64,000 nt of DNA from Pseudogemmatithrix spongiicola (lineage in GTDB: Bacteria; Gemmatimonadota; Gemmatimonadetes; Gemmatimonadales; Gemmatimonadaceae), in the NCBI RefSeq assembly GCF_030623445.1, contig NZ_CP130613.1, positions 620,001 through 684,000 of the forward strand. Reading direction: 5' to 3'. Within the stretch, counting starts at the first letter, position 1; each line of letters starts with the position of its first letter. Position numbers and translations under genes: made by a program. The notes under the pieces are model-generated. The model did not search any database and had not been told where the DNA came from. It saw only the letters and a list, made by a program, of their open reading frames with translations. This document shows, piece by piece, positions 51,669 through 58,255 of this stretch.

Positions 51669-51994
51669 AGTTCGCGCTGGTGTTCGTCCTGTTCTCGGGG
51701 ACGTTCGGCGCGCCGCCCGAGCGGCCGCCGGAGGATCCGTGGTTCGGGCGCGACAAGCTGTACCACTTCGTGGGCTCCGCCGTGCTGCAGGGTGCGGGGC
51801 ACGCAATCGGGCGCAGTGCAGGACTCGATTATCGCGAGGCCGCGTGGACGGCGGCGGGGCTGACGCTCACGGCGGGAATCGCGAAGGAGCTGTATGACCG
51901 CGCCGATGGCCGGTTCTTCTCCTGGCGCGATCTGACGGCAGATGTCGCCGGCGGCGGGAGCGGCGCGATTCTCGTACGACAGCTGGACAGATAG
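51665..51994 (+). CDS. YfiM-like (DUF2279) exported protein; insertion site of the island
   Basis: 109 residues from the ATG at 51665, overlapping the glpK stop (ATGA). A short signal (MKFALVFVLFSGTFGA) precedes the family blocks DKLYHFVGSAVL and IAKELYDRADGRFFSWRDLTADVAGG. The family occurs in periplasm or outer membrane; function is poorly known. The last 14 codons and stop lie in a 46-bp sequence repeated at 58210-58255, so foreign DNA entered at the 3' end while the gene stayed intact. Confidence 0.8.
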   Translation: MKFALVFVLFSGTFGAPPERPPEDPWFGRDKLYHFVGSAVLQGAGHAIGRSAGLDYREAAWTAAGLTLTAGIAKELYDRADGRFFSWRDLTADVAGGGSGAILVRQLDR

Positions 51995-51996
51995 CG
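51951..51996 (+). repeat. Left copy of the 46-bp direct repeat (attL-like)
   Basis: Matches 58210-58255 at 44 of 46 positions; the last 38 bases (AGCGGCGCGATTCTC onward to TAGCG) are identical. It covers the 3' end of the YfiM-like gene. Length, gene-end location and flanking of lower-GC DNA fit a site-specific integration duplication. Confidence 0.85.
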
Positions 51997-52000
51997 AGAA

Positions 52001-53638
52001 TCAGGTGCGATAAAGGCTGGCGGCCGAGGCGGATACTCGGTTTAGTGATGCTCGAATCTCGTACAGCAGATCGTTTGCCGGGAGGTCCGGGTCAGCCTTC
52101 ACCGTCTCGTGCCCGAGCGCGATAGCGTACTCGGAGAAGGCCACCTCGTACGCGAGCCGCCGGAACAGAACGTTCTCCGTGTCTCCATCGCCGAGCGCGG
52201 CTTCCACGGCTGGATGCAAGAGATTGATGAAGATTGTCAGCGAGGAGGAATCGTAAACGGACCTCGGTTCCTCTTTTCCGAGTTCCTCGAACCTAACCTG
52301 AAAGCCGCCAGTTGCACGCTTACGGTTTCCGGTACCACCCGCAGGATCTACCGACCTTGATCCGGAATCGCTCAAGTCACCGAGCCTTGGCAGGTCGGGT
52401 GCCTTGCGCCCTCTTGGATTGTCCGTTCTCTGCGGCGGCTCAGAAGCGAGTTCCCCTGGTTCACTCGCCCCTTCGATCCACGAAGACTGATCATCGCCCC
52501 CAAGTTCGGATCGAGCAGAACGACCGTGTGCGGGGCCGCTGCCGGAGGCAGAACGGATGTGAAAGAGCCGTCCCTGAACCTGTGCAAAATCCTTGTTAAG
52601 CACCTCCGCGATCTTGTCAGCTGCCTCTGCTAGCTTGCGGGCCTGCTCGGTCTTTCGGTGTTCTCTTGCATCGGAGACGAGCTCAAGTCTCGCTTTCTCG
52701 AGGCTGGCGCCGATGAAAGCAATAAGCGCGGCAGAGACGGGATGGAGCGGGTTCAGCGAGAGTGATCGGCTCGCATCAAAAGGCTGAATCGGGGATTCGT
52801 GGCGCTCGAGCGCCGGGACGTCGACATTGCCGAATAGGAACGCCCCGTATTCCTTGCGGTCGACTCCTCCCTTCTCGATCGCGACAAGGTTACCCGGGCC
52901 ACAGGTTACCTGCACCCCTTGATCGAGCTCGCCCAGTAACGATCGCGCCACACGGACCACTAGAACGACATCTCCGAGCAAGGTCCGCTGGGCAGGAGAT
53001 GGTTCAAACTTGAGCTCTCGCGACACGACGGGCTCTCGGGCAGAGCAAACGTGGTCGTTGACCGCAACCTCGGGAGAGAGTCCTCTGAATGCGCTGAGAT
53101 GGCGTTCGATGTACTCGATCACCCGCGACGCCTCGATCCGAGGGAGAACGATGTCGTCAATTGTGACCACGGTGCCGTTTGCACCGGTCGTCGACTCATT
53201 TCGGACACGCCATTCAATCGGAATATCGCTGCCATTGGACGCATCAATAGCCGCGCGCGACAGATGCACAACGTTGCGCAATCCATTCCGGCGCGTGTCG
53301 ACAGTGAGACTTGTGCCAATTCCGAACGCCGCAGACTTCCCTGTGCCGAACTTCCCTCGCCCTGGTCGGCCCGCAGCGCGATCACGGTTCTCTCCGTGCA
53401 TTTGGAAGTAATGCTGCAGGTCGGACGCAGTCATACCGCGACCATTGTCGCTAATGAGAATTCGCCGTGCGCGCGGAGCGATTTCCACCTGCACGCTCGG
53501 TGTTAGACCGCGCTCAACATACTGAAGGCTATTTACTACATACTCCCAAACAACAGCCGCTTCATGCTTAAATGATGCGGCTGCTGCCAGCAGGTCGCGG
53601 CCCACATGAGATGTGACCTTGATGTCAGAGGCCTTCAT
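52001..53638 (-). CDS. GHKL (MORC/Hsp90/MutL-type) ATPase of the island
   Basis: 545 residues. A complete Bergerat ATP site: N-box WEYVVNSLQYVE with Glu and Asn, G1 box ISDNGRGMT, and a G2 lid GRGKFGTGKSAAFGIG. There is no histidine-kinase H-box. Residues about 190-400 form a transducer-like region, then a Ser/Gly/Arg-rich linker (about 370-430), then a conserved C-terminal block (LTIFINLLHPAVEAALGD). This layout resembles MORC-type ATPases, which clamp on DNA, more than signalling kinases. The gene overlaps the winged-helix gene upstream by 14 bases. Its stop is only five bases from the left repeat. Confidence 0.75.
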   Translation of the reverse strand: MKASDIKVTSHVGRDLLAAAASFKHEAAVVWEYVVNSLQYVERGLTPSVQVEIAPRARRILISDNGRGMTASDLQHYFQMHGENRDRAAGRPGRGKFGTGKSAAFGIGTSLTVDTRRNGLRNVVHLSRAAIDASNGSDIPIEWRVRNESTTGANGTVVTIDDIVLPRIEASRVIEYIERHLSAFRGLSPEVAVNDHVCSAREPVVSRELKFEPSPAQRTLLGDVVLVVRVARSLLGELDQGVQVTCGPGNLVAIEKGGVDRKEYGAFLFGNVDVPALERHESPIQPFDASRSLSLNPLHPVSAALIAFIGASLEKARLELVSDAREHRKTEQARKLAEAADKIAEVLNKDFAQVQGRLFHIRSASGSGPAHGRSARSELGGDDQSSWIEGASEPGELASEPPQRTDNPRGRKAPDLPRLGDLSDSGSRSVDPAGGTGNRKRATGGFQVRFEELGKEEPRSVYDSSSLTIFINLLHPAVEAALGDGDTENVLFRRLAYEVAFSEYAIALGHETVKADPDLPANDLLYEIRASLNRVSASAASLYRT

Positions 53639-54218
53639 GGCGTTCTCCGGGCTGAATAGCGTCCGCGGCCGCTTGGACGAACTCCAAGAGATCCGGTTCT
53701 TGCGCGAATAGCTCCAAGAGGCGAGTGATCTTGAGGTCTCGCATCTGCGCGTTCACATATGAGTCGATGCGGAAGACCACCATTGCTTCCGCACTCGTGG
53801 GCGGCCTCCTGCTCTCGATCCAGGCGCGCGCGGCTGGAAGAGATCGCAGTCGAAGCTCTTCGCGCCTCCAGCGGCGCTCGTCCGGGGACGCGGACCTCCG
53901 ATCACGCCGGGCACGACTAGAGAACTCGGTGCTGCGCATCCGATGCTCGTTTTCCTTCACCCACTTGAGTCCCTTGGGTGTCAGGCTCCATCCATCCTTG
54001 CCAGTGCCGGCGAGCCAGCCATGCGACTTCTTCTTCGCGTCGGAGAGAAAGACGCGCACCAGCTCCAGATTCACTTGGTCCGGATACTTGGTCCAAGCGA
54101 AGCGAGAAGGAGCAATCGCGTGAGACTCGATTGCGATGTCCTCAGTGTCAACCACTTTCGAGGCGCCCCCGAGGGCAAAAACCGCGAAGGTGACGATTTC
54201 AACGTTGGACACTGGCAC
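53625..54218 (-). CDS. Winged-helix-like protein, partner of the GHKL ATPase
   Basis: 197 residues from a GTG. Residues 1-95 look like a winged-helix fold: VEIVTFAVFALGG, LELVRVFLSDAKKK, then WSLTPKGLKWVKEN, a wing followed by a charged helix. The middle is Arg/Glu-rich helix (RRDRRSASPDERRWRREELRL), and the C-terminus is helical (LKITRLLELFAQEPDLLEFV). It could be a DNA-binding adaptor or autoregulator. It is the first gene of a two-gene operon and overlaps the ATPase by 14 bases. No named family recognised. Confidence 0.65.
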   Translation of the reverse strand: MPVSNVEIVTFAVFALGGASKVVDTEDIAIESHAIAPSRFAWTKYPDQVNLELVRVFLSDAKKKSHGWLAGTGKDGWSLTPKGLKWVKENEHRMRSTEFSSRARRDRRSASPDERRWRREELRLRSLPAARAWIESRRPPTSAEAMVVFRIDSYVNAQMRDLKITRLLELFAQEPDLLEFVQAAADAIQPGERHEGL

Positions 54219-54234
54219 TAATCAATACCGAAAA

Positions 54235-54263
54235 TGTTAATTGTGGGATTGACAAAGTATATT
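54235..54263 (+). promoter_or_regulatory. AT-rich divergent control region of the island
   Basis: The 43-100-base gap between the minus-strand operon and the large plus-strand gene is AT-rich. TATATT (54258-54263) is a good -10 match, with only a weak -35 (TGTTAA, 54235-54240). A TTGACA at 54249 overlaps this stretch but has no -10 at the right distance. Confidence 0.35.
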
Positions 54264-54318
54264 GTGTGCGTCATCGTTCCGCAACTCACACATCGATAGC
54301 ATCCCTCACCAGGTTCGA

Positions 54319-56454
54319 ATGCTTCCTCGCTGGGGAATGGCCGGGGCTCCTTTGCTACCTCGAGCGCTCCGCGACGCGTGGGCTCACGAGGAGCTTCCTG
54401 CCTGGTTGCAGGCCGAGCTCTCCGAAACTGGTGCTCGCACCTACTCCGACCTCTCAGTGTCGGCGATTGCTCCTGGCAAGTCGTTTAGCGAGCGCGGAAA
54501 GGCGCTCTTGGTTTGGCTCGTTAAGAGCCGACTCGCCGAGATTCAGGACTTGCCGGCGGTATCTGACCTGAATCTTCAGGTGTCGGTCGACTTCATCCCT
54601 TGGACAACTCGGACCCGTAACGCGGTCAGAAGCGCGGTATGGCAGCGTCAGTTGCCAGCCTCGCCGTTCGACTGGAGTTTGCTGCGCATCCGGGACATCA
54701 TGGCCATCCCGAACCTCGGTCCAGGTTCATATTTGGATTTCGCGTGTACTCTTGAGGCGGGTGCTGTGGCTGACCTCCACAGTCAGTCCGAGGCGGACGC
54801 TGAGACTCCTGATTCGACCGAAGGGGAAGGGATTGAGGTCGAGCCCTGGATGAGGTTCGTCAGCCACTCAGATCCCAGATTCCGCGAGCACCTACCGCTT
54901 GGAGGCGAGACGCTCGCGGAGTTGGTTGAGAGCTTTGTCTCGGAGGTTGGTGGGGACGCGCAAGAGAAGGGTGCTCAGCTGCGTGAAGCTGTCATTCGGT
55001 CTCGCTTCACCGCCGAGAAGGTGAGCGCGTTGTCTCTCGAGGGGGCTATCGAGGACTACGTTGGTCGACTCACCGGACTCAAGGGAGACCGGCTTGCGAG
55101 AATACTCGACCGACTTCAGATGTCCGGTCAGTCTCGAGCATATACGCTGGAAGAAGTCGCTAGCCGCCTTGGCATCACCCGAGAGCGAGCGAGACAGCTG
55201 CAACTCAAATTTGACTCACGAATTTCACGGCACCCGGTCTATCTCCCACAGCTCGATGCCGCGCTGGAAATCTTAGAGTCCGAGGCGCCAATTGATGCTG
55301 AGACAGCTAGTCGCGTACTGAGAGATCGAGGCATCTCGGACGGTCCGTTTCATCCTCAGAGCCTCTTGAGCACAGCCGCAAGGCTCGGTCGACGTGTGTC
55401 TCTGATTCTCCAGGAGATTGCTGGTCAGTTAATCGTTGTGATTGAGGCAAGGGCACGTCTGAACATCGAAGTCGAGCGTGAGTCATCGCGCCTTGCATTT
55501 CAGGGAGGGGTGTTCCGGCCCGATTCAGTTGTGAGCGCACTGAGGCTTCGAGGCACGACTGCCGGACCAGAGGAAGTGAAGGCAGTGCTCAACCAGCTTT
55601 CGGAGTACGAGGAGTTAGCAGGAGGGTGGTATTGGCACCGCGGCCAACTGGGCAGCTATGTGGAGGTCACCGCGGCAGGGATGCTTGGTTTTGTCTCGGA
55701 GATCGACGTCGGCAGCATCCGAGAGGGGCTCGGAAAGGGGCTTAGGTGGCGGACAACTTCAGGTCGGATGAGCGCGCCGTGGATTCCGGTACCCCCTCCC
55801 CGCGAGGCGCTCGCGTCCTTCTTCCAGGCTCACCCTAGTTTCGTTCAGGTAGGCTCATCAGTGCGGTTGGCACCAGGAGCGCGTGTGTCCACTCGCGTCA
55901 CACCGACGGAGTCGAAACTCGCAGATCTATTCAGGGAGTCTCCCACTGGGATTCTTGACCGAGCGAGGGTCATCGACCTCGCTGCGCGGCAGGACGTCAG
56001 TCCTTCTTCCACGGCACTGGCAATGACCTACAGCCCCTACCTCGAGAATCTCGGTGGCGGTATCTGGACTCTCCGCGGCCTGAAGCCGGACCCGGTCGCG
56101 ATCGCGGAGTTGCGACGACAACTCGCAACTCGTGCCCCCGTTAAGCGCATCACAGATTTCGGCTGGCGAGATGATGGTCGACTCCACTTCTCATGCGTGC
56201 TTCCAAAGTACACGGAGGGGTTGGTTCTCTCTGCCCCTGCGACGATTGTGCGATATATCGCGGCGCGTACTTTCGCTTTTCCTCAGGACGATACCGATTT
56301 GCGAGTAGACGACAGCGGTATCGTGGGCGGATACAAGAGATGGCTCCGTCAGGTAGGGGCGGACGAAGGCGATGTCGCAACCTTCGTGTTCGATCTGATT
56401 GGCGGCTCAGCCGTTGTGGAGCTTATTCCTCGAGGATACCAAGAAGAAGACTGA
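54319..56454 (+). CDS. Large protein with alpha-CTD-like HhH and sigma-region-4-like HTH
   Basis: 711 residues from the ATG at 54319; a TTG at 54262 adds 19 residues. Residues about 90-150 (PWTTRTRNAVRSAVW, ending MAIPNLGPGSYLDFACTLE) resemble the helix-hairpin-helix of the RNA polymerase alpha C-terminal domain. Residues about 275-297 (LEEVASRLGITRERARQLQ) match the sigma-70 region 4.2 helix-turn-helix. The rest repeats winged-helix-like units (FRPDSVVSALRLRG, LDRARVIDLAARQDVSPSS), as in RNA-polymerase-linked or HARE-HTH proteins. No enzyme site found. It is divergent from the GHKL operon. Function unknown; a DNA- or RNA-polymerase-targeting role is plausible. Confidence 0.65.
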   Translation: MLPRWGMAGAPLLPRALRDAWAHEELPAWLQAELSETGARTYSDLSVSAIAPGKSFSERGKALLVWLVKSRLAEIQDLPAVSDLNLQVSVDFIPWTTRTRNAVRSAVWQRQLPASPFDWSLLRIRDIMAIPNLGPGSYLDFACTLEAGAVADLHSQSEADAETPDSTEGEGIEVEPWMRFVSHSDPRFREHLPLGGETLAELVESFVSEVGGDAQEKGAQLREAVIRSRFTAEKVSALSLEGAIEDYVGRLTGLKGDRLARILDRLQMSGQSRAYTLEEVASRLGITRERARQLQLKFDSRISRHPVYLPQLDAALEILESEAPIDAETASRVLRDRGISDGPFHPQSLLSTAARLGRRVSLILQEIAGQLIVVIEARARLNIEVERESSRLAFQGGVFRPDSVVSALRLRGTTAGPEEVKAVLNQLSEYEELAGGWYWHRGQLGSYVEVTAAGMLGFVSEIDVGSIREGLGKGLRWRTTSGRMSAPWIPVPPPREALASFFQAHPSFVQVGSSVRLAPGARVSTRVTPTESKLADLFRESPTGILDRARVIDLAARQDVSPSSTALAMTYSPYLENLGGGIWTLRGLKPDPVAIAELRRQLATRAPVKRITDFGWRDDGRLHFSCVLPKYTEGLVLSAPATIVRYIAARTFAFPQDDTDLRVDDSGIVGGYKRWLRQVGADEGDVATFVFDLIGGSAVVELIPRGYQEED

Positions 56455-56566: not shown

Positions 56567-56639
56567 TGTTCACTGAGGCATAACTGAGGAAGCTGGAGGT
56601 GCGAGCCACCCAACCTTCAGCCAGAGGCCTCAGTGAACA
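56567..56639. repeat. 13-bp inverted repeat before the IS481-like gene
   Basis: TGTTCACTGAGGC (56567-56579) and its exact complement GCCTCAGTGAACA (56627-56639) flank 47 bases, and the second arm contains the transposase start. One arm may be the left terminal repeat of the IS481-like element and the other an operator or structure controlling the transposase. Confidence 0.55.
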
Positions 56640-56826
56640 TCCACAACAATGCGCGATTGACCGCCTGGGGGCGAGCCGAGCTCGTCCGCCGGGTGGTCCT
56701 CGACGGCGAGCCGGTGCGCGCCGTCGCCGCGGCCCTCCACATCAGCCCGAGCACGGCTTACAAGTGGCTGCGCCGCTTCGCGGCCGGGGGCTGGGCGGCG
56801 CTGGCCGACCGCTCCTCGCGCCCGCG
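56633..56826 (+). pseudogene. IS481-family transposase, N-terminal fragment
   Basis: About 65 codons from a GTG. NIHNNARLTAWGRAELVRRV, an HTH (VAAALHISPSTAYKWLRRF) and ALADRSSRP are the N-terminal signature of IS481 transposases. The DDE catalytic domain is missing: the gene is cut at the left terminal repeat of the IS3-family element at 56827, and reading continues 11 codons into it before stopping. Confidence 0.85.
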
Positions 56827-56887
56827 TCAGCTTCCCCCTGAGGTAGACAGTCGGAGTTAGACTTGGGACGGTGCCTATGGAGGAGCC

Positions 56888-57154
56888 ATGCGCCGTTCGA
56901 AGTTCACCGAGTCCCAGATCGTGGCCGCCCTGCAGGAAGTCGAAGGCGGGGTGCCCATCGCCGAGGTGATCCGGAAGCACGGGATCAGCCGGGCGACCTT
57001 CTTCACTTGGAAGTCGAAGTACGGCGGGGCGACCGTCGCCGAGCTCAAGCGGCTGCGGGAACTCGAGGCCGAGAACGTGAAGCTCAAGCGGATGTACGCG
57101 GAGCTCGCGCTCGAGAATGCGGCCATCAAGGACGTCCTCAGTCGCAAGCTGTAG
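56888..57154 (+). CDS. IS3-family transposase OrfA
   Basis: 88 residues. It has a helix-turn-helix (SQIVAALQEVEGG, ISRATFFTWKSKYGG) and a leucine-zipper-like tail (LRELEAENVKLKRMYAELALENAAIKDVL). The pattern matches the IS407-type subgroup. It binds the terminal repeats and is normally fused to OrfB by -1 frameshifting. Confidence 0.93.
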   Translation: MRRSKFTESQIVAALQEVEGGVPIAEVIRKHGISRATFFTWKSKYGGATVAELKRLRELEAENVKLKRMYAELALENAAIKDVLSRKL

Positions 57155-57174
57155 CGCCGCCCGCGAAGCGGCAG

Positions 57175-58008
57175 GTGATCGCGATCTTGGTGGAGGAGCA
57201 CGGGCTGTCCGTGCGGCATGCCTGCCAGGTCGTGTCCCTCTCGCGGGCGGCGTACTACCGACCGCCGCCGGACCGGCTGGACCGCGACGCCGACGTGATC
57301 GCGGCGCTCACCGCGCTCGTGACCGAGACGCCGCAGTGGGGCTTCTGGATGTGCTTCGATGCGCTGCGCCTCGCCGGGCATCGCTGGAACTGGAAGCGCG
57401 TGTATCGCGTGTACTGCGCGCTGAAGCTCAACCTCAAGCGACGGACGAAACGCCGGATCCCGCCGCGCGAGCGGCAGCCGCTCGACGCGCCCGCGGTCCT
57501 CAACGGGATGTGGGCCGTCGACTTCATGAGCGACATGCTCTACAGCGGGACGCGTTTCCGCACGCTGAACGTGCTCGACGAAGGCAATCGGGAGGCCCTC
57601 GCGGTCGAGGTGGCGCTGTCGCTGCCGGCCGCGCGGGTGACGCAGGTGCTCGACCAGCTCGTCGCGCTGCACGGGGCGCCGAGCGCGCTCCGCTGTGACA
57701 ATGGGCCCGAGTTCGTCTCGGTCGAACTCACCACGTGGTGCCGGCGCCATGGCGTGCGGCTGCTGCACATCCAACCGGGCAAGCCCAACCAGAACGCCTA
57801 CATCGAACGCTTCAACGGGAGCTACCGCAAGGAAGTCCTCGACGCGTACCTTTTCGGCTCCCTTGACGACGTCCGCGCCGAGACCGAACGCTGGCTCACG
57901 ATCTACAACACGCGGCGGCCGCACGACAGCCTCGGCCGGGTCCCGCCGCTCACCTTCCTGCCGAGGTCACCCGCGCCGCTCCAGTCTAGTTACGAACGGT
58001 CTGCCTGA
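57175..58008 (+). CDS. IS3-family transposase OrfB (DDE integrase core)
   Basis: Frame -1 relative to orfA; the open frame extends upstream of the GTG at 57175, so an OrfAB fusion by ribosomal frameshift is possible, though no A6G slippery run is seen. HTH_21 segment VRHACQVVSLSRAAYYR, then the DDE residues in WAVDFMSDML, LRCDNGPEF and NAYIERFNGSYRKEVLD. The catalytic core looks intact, so the element may be active. Confidence 0.92.
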   Translation: MIAILVEEHGLSVRHACQVVSLSRAAYYRPPPDRLDRDADVIAALTALVTETPQWGFWMCFDALRLAGHRWNWKRVYRVYCALKLNLKRRTKRRIPPRERQPLDAPAVLNGMWAVDFMSDMLYSGTRFRTLNVLDEGNREALAVEVALSLPAARVTQVLDQLVALHGAPSALRCDNGPEFVSVELTTWCRRHGVRLLHIQPGKPNQNAYIERFNGSYRKEVLDAYLFGSLDDVRAETERWLTIYNTRRPHDSLGRVPPLTFLPRSPAPLQSSYERSA

Positions 58009-58020
58009 CGGGGAAGCTGA

Positions 58021-58209
58021 CGGAAGGGGCGGGAGGACGTGGAGTATGCGACGCTGGAATGGGTGGCCTGGTACAACAGCCAGCGCCTGATGCAGCCGCT
58101 CGGGGACATCCCCCCGGCGGAGTACGAAGCGCAGTATTATCACACCCAGGCCGCGTCCGCGGCCGTGGGACTCAACTAACCGAGTCTCCGGAAATCCCGG
58201 GCCGATTCA
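58021..58209 (+). pseudogene. Right-end remnant of a second IS3-family element
   Basis: 52 codons to TAA at 58177-58179 give an IS3-type OrfB C-terminus: VEYATLEWVAWYNSQRLMQPLGDIPPAEYE. After the stop, CGAGTCTCCGGAAATCCCGG ending in GATTCA at 58209 resembles the right terminal repeat of IS3-group elements (complement TGAATCGG...). The rest of this element was lost or displaced by the IS at 56827. Its end directly abuts the right copy of the 46-bp repeat. Confidence 0.82.
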
Positions 58210-58255
58210 GCGGTGGAAGCGGCGCGATTCTCGTACGACAGCTGGACAGATAGCG
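58210..58255 (+). repeat. Right copy of the 46-bp direct repeat (attR-like)
   Basis: Same orientation as 51951-51996, with mismatches only at its 5th and 8th positions. It encodes in frame the last residues of the YfiM-like protein (GSGAILVRQLDR and stop) but has no gene body before it, so it is the orphan copy. Chromosomal high-GC sequence resumes after it. Confidence 0.85.

Follow-up and report, generated by a model that had tools for sequence, protein, structure and literature searches.

The subject of this analysis is a three-gene unit within a 64,000-nucleotide stretch of the Pseudogemmatithrix spongiicola chromosome (contig NZ_CP130613.1, positions 620,001 to 684,000), hereafter referred to as the window. 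The unit is a real, mobile, and uncatalogued module. It features a GHKL ATPase of the MutL/MORC type, a winged-helix (WH) protein, and a third protein that joins a part resembling the C-terminal domain of the RNA polymerase alpha subunit (alpha-CTD) to a sigma-70 region 4, tandem winged helices, and a probable B3-like domain. The set is absent from PADLOC-DB, Pfam, and NCBIfam, and only the generic HATPase domain passes a Pfam/NCBIfam cut-off. Regardless of mechanism, it is an uncatalogued unit that occurs in distant bacterial phyla and in three kinds of mobile context, in the form of self-contained cassettes of ~4.5 kb. Its function is probably defence. That it is a horizontally mobile defence module composed of a promoter-reading targeting subunit, a WH partner, and a GHKL clamp is a possible reading that falls somewhat short of an even chance.

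Distribution and linkage of the three genes

To determine the distribution of the module, an alignment of two GHKL sequences was used to scan one genome for each species. With the GHKL protein as the only query, this gave 13 further loci, spread over six named phyla—a lower bound, since the scan was driven by two short peptide patterns. They belong to Acidobacteriota, Bacteroidota, Gammaproteobacteria (three), a further Proteobacteria bin, Actinobacteria (three, one of them an Arthrobacter), Chloroflexi (two, near-identical), Poribacteria, and a Pelagibacteraceae cell. The WH gene is present in all 13 and lies directly upstream of the GHKL gene on the same strand; the third gene was recovered by tblastn in 12. 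In the remaining locus (L056), the third gene is cut at the contig end, and the leftover frame matches the third-protein profile (E 9e-6). As GHKL served to find the loci, the three genes can be said to co-occur only for this GHKL subfamily. The third gene is divergent in the window, in copy 2 (a further instance of the unit in this genome), and in eight other loci; it is located upstream on the same strand in L050, L051, and L056 and downstream on the same strand in L055 and L058. Given this variable order, the role of the third gene goes beyond that of a divergent autoregulator. The pairwise identities of the three proteins correlate with a rho of 0.83-0.85 (at most 1/5000 permutations). Open reading frames were called by a simple script; hence, gene starts outside the window are approximate.

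The tree calculated from the two most highly conserved proteins is poorly resolved; in it, the phyla are intermingled. Within the phylum of the window, GHKL occurs in only 3 of 395 genomes, the other two instances being a contig-end piece and a remnant, and it was found in none of the other searched genomes of the genus. A contig scan with the third protein alone gave no match, probably because this protein diverges fastest. No match was obtained in the phage collection for the GHKL protein or the copy-2 third protein, nor in IMG/VR for GHKL. The plasmid search returned only one distant GHKL homologue, on a Rhizobium replicon (L111:7884-9485, E 1.7e-50), which is without both the WH and the third-protein partner.

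Mobile contexts and genomic islands

The module is found on three kinds of carrier: an island at the 3' end of yfiM in the window, a chromosomal integron, and a stretch of transfer-messenger RNA (tmRNA) repeats in the Pelagibacteraceae cell (L058). In the window, the coordinates of which are given in the table, the module is enclosed by two 46-bp direct repeats that are present at these two places only in the 3.26-Mb genome. The GC content is 0.59 in the three-gene unit versus 0.69 in the flanks. The closest available congener, the CcmE of which is 98% identical, represents an empty site: The order GlpK, YfiM, CcmE is uninterrupted, and a gap of ~120 bp between YfiM and CcmE takes the place of the 6.2-kb island. 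The original prediction, made from the window sequence, regarded the three genes as one module carried as cargo. The former is upheld by the presence of the set in 13/13 loci, in differing orders and with correlated divergence, and the latter by the empty site and the integron copy. The search with the GHKL protein finds the set outside the window strain, in distant phyla, and in most loci beside defence genes. The predicted repeat-bounded island of lower GC content is likewise found, but the three genes are not alone inside it: The segment 56569-58209, 3' of the third gene, holds an IS3-family insertion sequence (IS) and IS remnants, the remnants being assigned by eye. No integrase is found inside the island; an earlier one may have given way to the IS debris at the right end. 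IS3-family elements lie beside both module copies, and no target duplication is seen.

Features of the module and its island in the window (positions in window coordinates)
Feature	Position	Strand	Remarks
Left 46-bp direct repeat, att-like	51951-51996		3' end of yfiM-like gene
GHKL (MutL/MORC-type) ATPase gene	52001-53638	-	545 amino acids; catalytic boxes intact; C-terminal domain (~residues 440-545) uncharacterised
WH protein gene	53625-54218	-	197 amino acids; winged helix at residues 1-98, C-terminal part helical
Third gene, alpha-CTD/sigma-4/winged-helix/B3 protein	54319-56454	+	711 amino acids from ATG 54319
Alpha-CTD-like helix-hairpin-helix part	54595-54771	+	family profile and RpoA motif alignment
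Sigma-70 region 4	55030-55236	+	recognition helix TRERxRQ
Tandem winged-helix repeats, SelB-like and Fur-like	55246-56073	+	predicted model, structure matches
Probable B3-like DNA-binding domain	56167-56436	+	VAL1, VRN1, ARF1 B3 domains; LlaJI.R1 N-terminal domain
IS481-type transposase N-terminus-like remnant	56569-56824	+	read by eye
IS3-family insertion sequence	56825-58022	+	1198/1198 identical to element beside copy 2 (L003 5260-6457)
Right 46-bp direct repeat	58210-58255		44/46 identical to left copy

The second copy of the unit, which the original prediction had missed, is located at ~2377410-2381885 of the same genome, 1.7 Mb from the window unit, and shares with it 56% identity in GHKL, 44% in WH, and 34-36% in the third protein. 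The integron that carries it comprises 51 attC sites over 79 kb (G000:C1:2333039-2413377; L041-L045) and an integrase IntI (412 bits, cut-off 265) 44 kb upstream of copy 2. The copy-2 interval has attC sites on both sides, as is characteristic of an integron cassette, and no further attC inside as judged by pattern and covariance model; it would move as one cassette. It measures 6824 bp versus a median interval of 756 bp and contains, in addition to the three genes, a DUF2971 gene (L003:6481-7326) and the IS3 element. The interval just before it carries a C5 DNA methyltransferase and an HNH endonuclease (L003:3396-5077). Two more long attC-attC stretches are observed at G000:C1:2359918-2372654 (12.7 kb) and 2385208-2396038 (10.8 kb). 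The integrase gene and the attC array share one strand; in the usual integron layout, the two are divergent. According to a review, integron defence systems are small, with a conspicuous lack of systems that exceed two genes (PMC12409362). The copy-2 interval is therefore unusual and runs counter to the reported lack of multi-gene defence systems in integrons. The island in the window was also considered as an integron cassette, and this was rejected: No attC was detected there by pattern or by an unfiltered covariance model (best E 0.008, outside the island).

In L058, the module is framed by a pair of 29-bp repeats that derive from the tmRNA end, with the tmRNA itself 0.7 kb further on. Five repeats of the permuted tmRNA gene end separate single genes and the module in L058:8386-14617—an arrangement like tandem small islands. 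The modules of L052 and L053 adjoin tRNA genes. A generally repeat-bounded element was rejected since exact flanking repeats of at least 18 bp occur only at the window, at the integron copy (L003, attC), and in L058, and at none of the other seven loci tested.

Defence neighbourhoods

Most of the 13 loci adjoin or neighbour defence genes—restriction-modification (R-M), Type ISP, PARIS-like, Lamassu, and HepT—in a survey that is not blind, as the neighbour genes were chosen by eye. Type II methyltransferases are present in L049 (5e-125) and in L050 (5e-99), in the latter case in the same operon as the module and together with a REase_II match (9e-11). Overall, a methyltransferase lies in the operon or adjacent to it in L049 and L050/L051, and a Type ISP restriction enzyme of 1620 amino acids (4e-106) is found in L054; the remaining loci are without them. 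The other neighbours are AriAB/PARIS-like in L048 (2e-50), LmuB in L055 (4e-105), PDC-S11 in L052 (9e-132), HEC-09 in L046 (5e-43), and a nucleotidyltransferase plus HepT in L053. For copy 2, the C5 methyltransferase and HNH genes of the preceding integron interval count among such neighbours.

Architecture of the three proteins

The GHKL protein matches Pfam HATPase_c_3 with an E of 2e-15 (57 bits versus a cut-off of 25) and features all boxes of the superfamily: the N box with its Glu and Asn, DxGxG, GxxG, and GT. The residues E32, N36, D64, G68, G95, G98, G100, and G155-T156 are invariant in 13/13 aligned homologues. The model NF050001, which represents BbrUII/HgiDII family restriction enzymes, matches 13/13 GHKL proteins (best 1.1e-18); in the window protein, this match is limited to the ATPase domain (residues 5-170) and reaches 40 bits at a cut-off of 550. 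The REase_II model matches the GHKL set in 8/13 loci. No PD-(D/E)XK or HNH motif is evident in the alignment among the conserved residues of the GHKL C-terminal part.

The WH protein shares a 14-bp reading-frame overlap with GHKL. Its predicted model has a predicted local distance difference test (pLDDT) score of 91 and resembles the winged-helix protein F-93 of SSV1 (VIA Z 9.9) and Rio2 (VIA Z 9.2). Its profile gave no match to the sequences of the PDB. The sole Pfam match, Transposase_32, is weak and below the cut-off and was dismissed.

The frame of the third gene is open from TTG 54262, which would yield 730 amino acids; the homologues start near ATG 54319 (711 amino acids). The predicted model of the protein has a mean pLDDT of 85.7. 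The family profile of its N-terminal part matches the RpoA C-terminal domain with an E of 1.4e-5, and Pfam RNA_pol_A_CTD is found in 4/13 third proteins. When aligned to the RpoA motif svRsyNcL, the Arg is kept in 9/9 and the Asn in 7/9 of the proteins. Sigma region 4 is recognised by the family profile (E 3.6e-18) and by Pfam Sigma70_r4 in 13/13 (best 4e-14), and the (T/S)RERxRQ of the -35 recognition helix is kept in all 13 aligned third proteins. In alpha-CTD and sigma70, the residues that align with the Arg/Asn pair and the TRER-type residues contact UP-element and -35 DNA, respectively. Sigma region 2—responsible for -10 recognition, melting, and core binding—has no Pfam/NCBIfam match, and the matches end at region 4. 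The last 90 residues form a probable B3-like domain in the predicted model: They match the B3 domain of VAL1 (Foldseek probability 0.99), that of VRN1 (VIA Z 7.4; root-mean-square deviation 2.6 over 88 residues), that of ARF1 (7.1), and the N-terminal domain of LlaJI.R1 (7.0). Two variants of the third protein are observed: Its alpha-CTD-like module is apparently doubled in L049:6702-9494, and two tandem sigma-4-like genes instead of one stand next to the GHKL/WH pair in L054:6815-9332.

Both gene-level claims of the original prediction are hence borne out. The overlapping minus-strand pair of a WH and a Bergerat-fold ATPase gene is confirmed by the overlap, the intact boxes, and the WH model, and the divergent protein of ~711 residues with an alpha-CTD-like helix-hairpin-helix and a sigma-region-4-like helix-turn-helix by the profile and Pfam matches. 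The B3-like C-terminal domain had been missed.

Proposed mechanism and alternatives

In the proposed mechanism, the third protein would be the targeting subunit and carry both upstream-promoter readers of the RNA polymerase holoenzyme on one chain: The alpha-CTD-like part would read the UP element and sigma region 4 the -35 element, with the winged helices and the B3-like domain added. Whether the third protein recognises promoters is evenly balanced; the retained promoter-reading residues would fit the original idea that foreign transcription is sensed or blocked. Because the rest of the sigma factor is missing, the protein should be unable to start transcription itself; binding to promoter-like DNA or competition with sigma would be open to it. 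The WH protein may be a partner or adaptor of the GHKL ATPase, which would close on DNA in an ATP-dependent manner, as MutL and MORC do. In its closed state, the ATPase could silence, compact, or mark for destruction the promoter-bearing foreign DNA. A GHKL clamp or silencing as the output can be put forward only tentatively. The complete sequence of events—a defence that recognises invaders by their promoters, in which a holoenzyme-like reader loads a MORC-like GHKL clamp via the WH partner and thereby shuts off or marks foreign DNA—is doubtful. What suggests both promoter reading and clamp loading are the conserved DNA-contact residues. If true, the module would confer immunity by reading the promoters of foreign DNA, which are a signal hard for phages and plasmids to dispense with; in its logic, it would be like the MORC-mediated silencing of eukaryotes.

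Several observations weigh against a promoter-reading defence module. No effector nuclease or toxin domain was recognised in the module, the C-terminal domain of GHKL being uncharacterised. The alpha-CTD-like part is absent in L050, L054, L055, and L058, and reading of the UP element is therefore not essential. The B3 assignment derives from a predicted model, with an E of 0.04 to VAL1 and VIA Z values of 7.0-7.4, the range that the tool rates as common. No recognised defence neighbour is present in L056, in L058, or in the window island. When 10 random 20-kb segments of these genomes, with 123 open reading frames, served as a control (PADLOC, E 1e-30), mad3 was found three times and ShosA, RtcR, and PsyrA once each. 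These four families are judged to have look-alikes among housekeeping genes, and the control was free of R-M, Lamassu, PARIS, and PDC families.

The methyltransferase genes and the Type ISP enzyme next to the module, together with its promoter-reading domains, would also suit an accessory regulator. In that case, the three proteins would control the transcription of neighbouring defence genes—with the third protein on the promoter and the ATPase as a switch—and would not attack invaders. This is unlikely, as the neighbours vary by locus and the module is on its own on all three carriers (window island, integron interval, tmRNA repeats), IS material and the DUF2971 gene aside. A system of the restriction type, with DNA cut by the GHKL ATPase or by its C-terminal domain under the guidance of the B3/sigma-4 protein in the manner of BbrUII/HgiDII, would account for the NF050001 and REase_II matches of the GHKL proteins, for the resemblance of the B3-like part to a domain of the restriction enzyme LlaJI.R1, and for the methyltransferase in the L050 operon. 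However, the NF050001 match in the window protein covers the ATPase domain only, no nuclease motif of the two kinds is evident, and most loci are without a cognate methyltransferase, which would leave self-protection lacking an explanation; such a system is quite unlikely.

The module might, furthermore, be the own machinery of a mobile element or an addiction module and not serve host defence, as could be suggested by the repeat pairs that bound the window module and the L058 module and enclose no integrase. The carriers differ, however, seven other tested loci have no such flanking repeats, and no recombinase domain is found; this is very unlikely. A reduced MZA system made of MzaA and MzaB homologues is largely refuted and the least probable of these alternatives. 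It was considered because of weak profile matches of the window proteins to MzaA (19-21 bits, cut-off 800) and MzaB (18 bits, cut-off 850), both far below the cut-offs. The ordinary sigma factors of the genome score 251, 212, and 193 bits with the MzaA profile, whereas the third protein scores 21; the match hence reflects generic sigma region 4 only, and membership in MZA was rejected. In addition, no Z1, DUF4420, or AIPR gene is present in the window island or the copy-2 interval, the other loci having been sampled only. The defence module with promoter-reading subunit, WH partner, and GHKL clamp remains the preferred reading at the strength stated at the outset.

Comparison with known systems

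The module has only weak matches in PADLOC/NCBIfam, namely MzaA, MzaB, BbrUII, and REase_II. The MZA system (MzaABCDE; NF041931, NF041932) likewise features a GHKL MutL-like ATPase and a sigma-region-4 protein in a defence context. However, the MzaA profile covers true sigma factors over its C-terminal third, whereas the third protein of the module has region 4 only, in addition to alpha-CTD-like, winged-helix, and B3-like parts.

The MORC/paraMORC GHKL ATPases of R-M loci were described in 2008 in operons that, in the passages on these loci, centre on SF2 helicases and endonucleases (Iyer et al. 2008, PMC2292703). As described there, they share with the module the GHKL domain and a following domain, the patchy distribution across phyla, and, for some loci of the module, the location beside R-M genes, and some have B3 (VP1/RAV) proteins (PMC2292703). 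The defining set of these systems is taken as a GHKL plus S5 domain next to an SF2 helicase, methyltransferase, or endonuclease gene; among the loci of the module, L049 and L050/L051 (methyltransferase) and L054 (Type ISP) have neighbours of this sort. The pair of a WH protein and an alpha-CTD/sigma-4/B3 protein is absent from those passages (PMC2292703).

The BbrUII/HgiDII family (NF050001) is the closest curated relative of the GHKL protein, with the match in the window protein confined to the ATPase domain. GHKL-Shedu has the GHKL ATPase domain in common with the module. The paraMORC3-like VcSduA of this system loses defence upon the exchange E27A, and hence the GHKL Glu is needed (PMC12137116). 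VcSduA is a single protein with a C-terminal DUF4263 nuclease, but no such domain was found in the module. Similar to integron-borne defence cassettes (reviewed in PMC12409362), copy 2 is located among attC sites and beside an R-M cassette, but its interval is 6.8 kb long and holds a three-gene unit.

The statement of the original prediction that this set is not known from any named system stands, with the caveat of MZA, which combines GHKL with a true sigma factor, and of the restriction-locus paraMORC ATPases of 2008. Among known kinds, MZA and the paraMORC systems come closest to the module.

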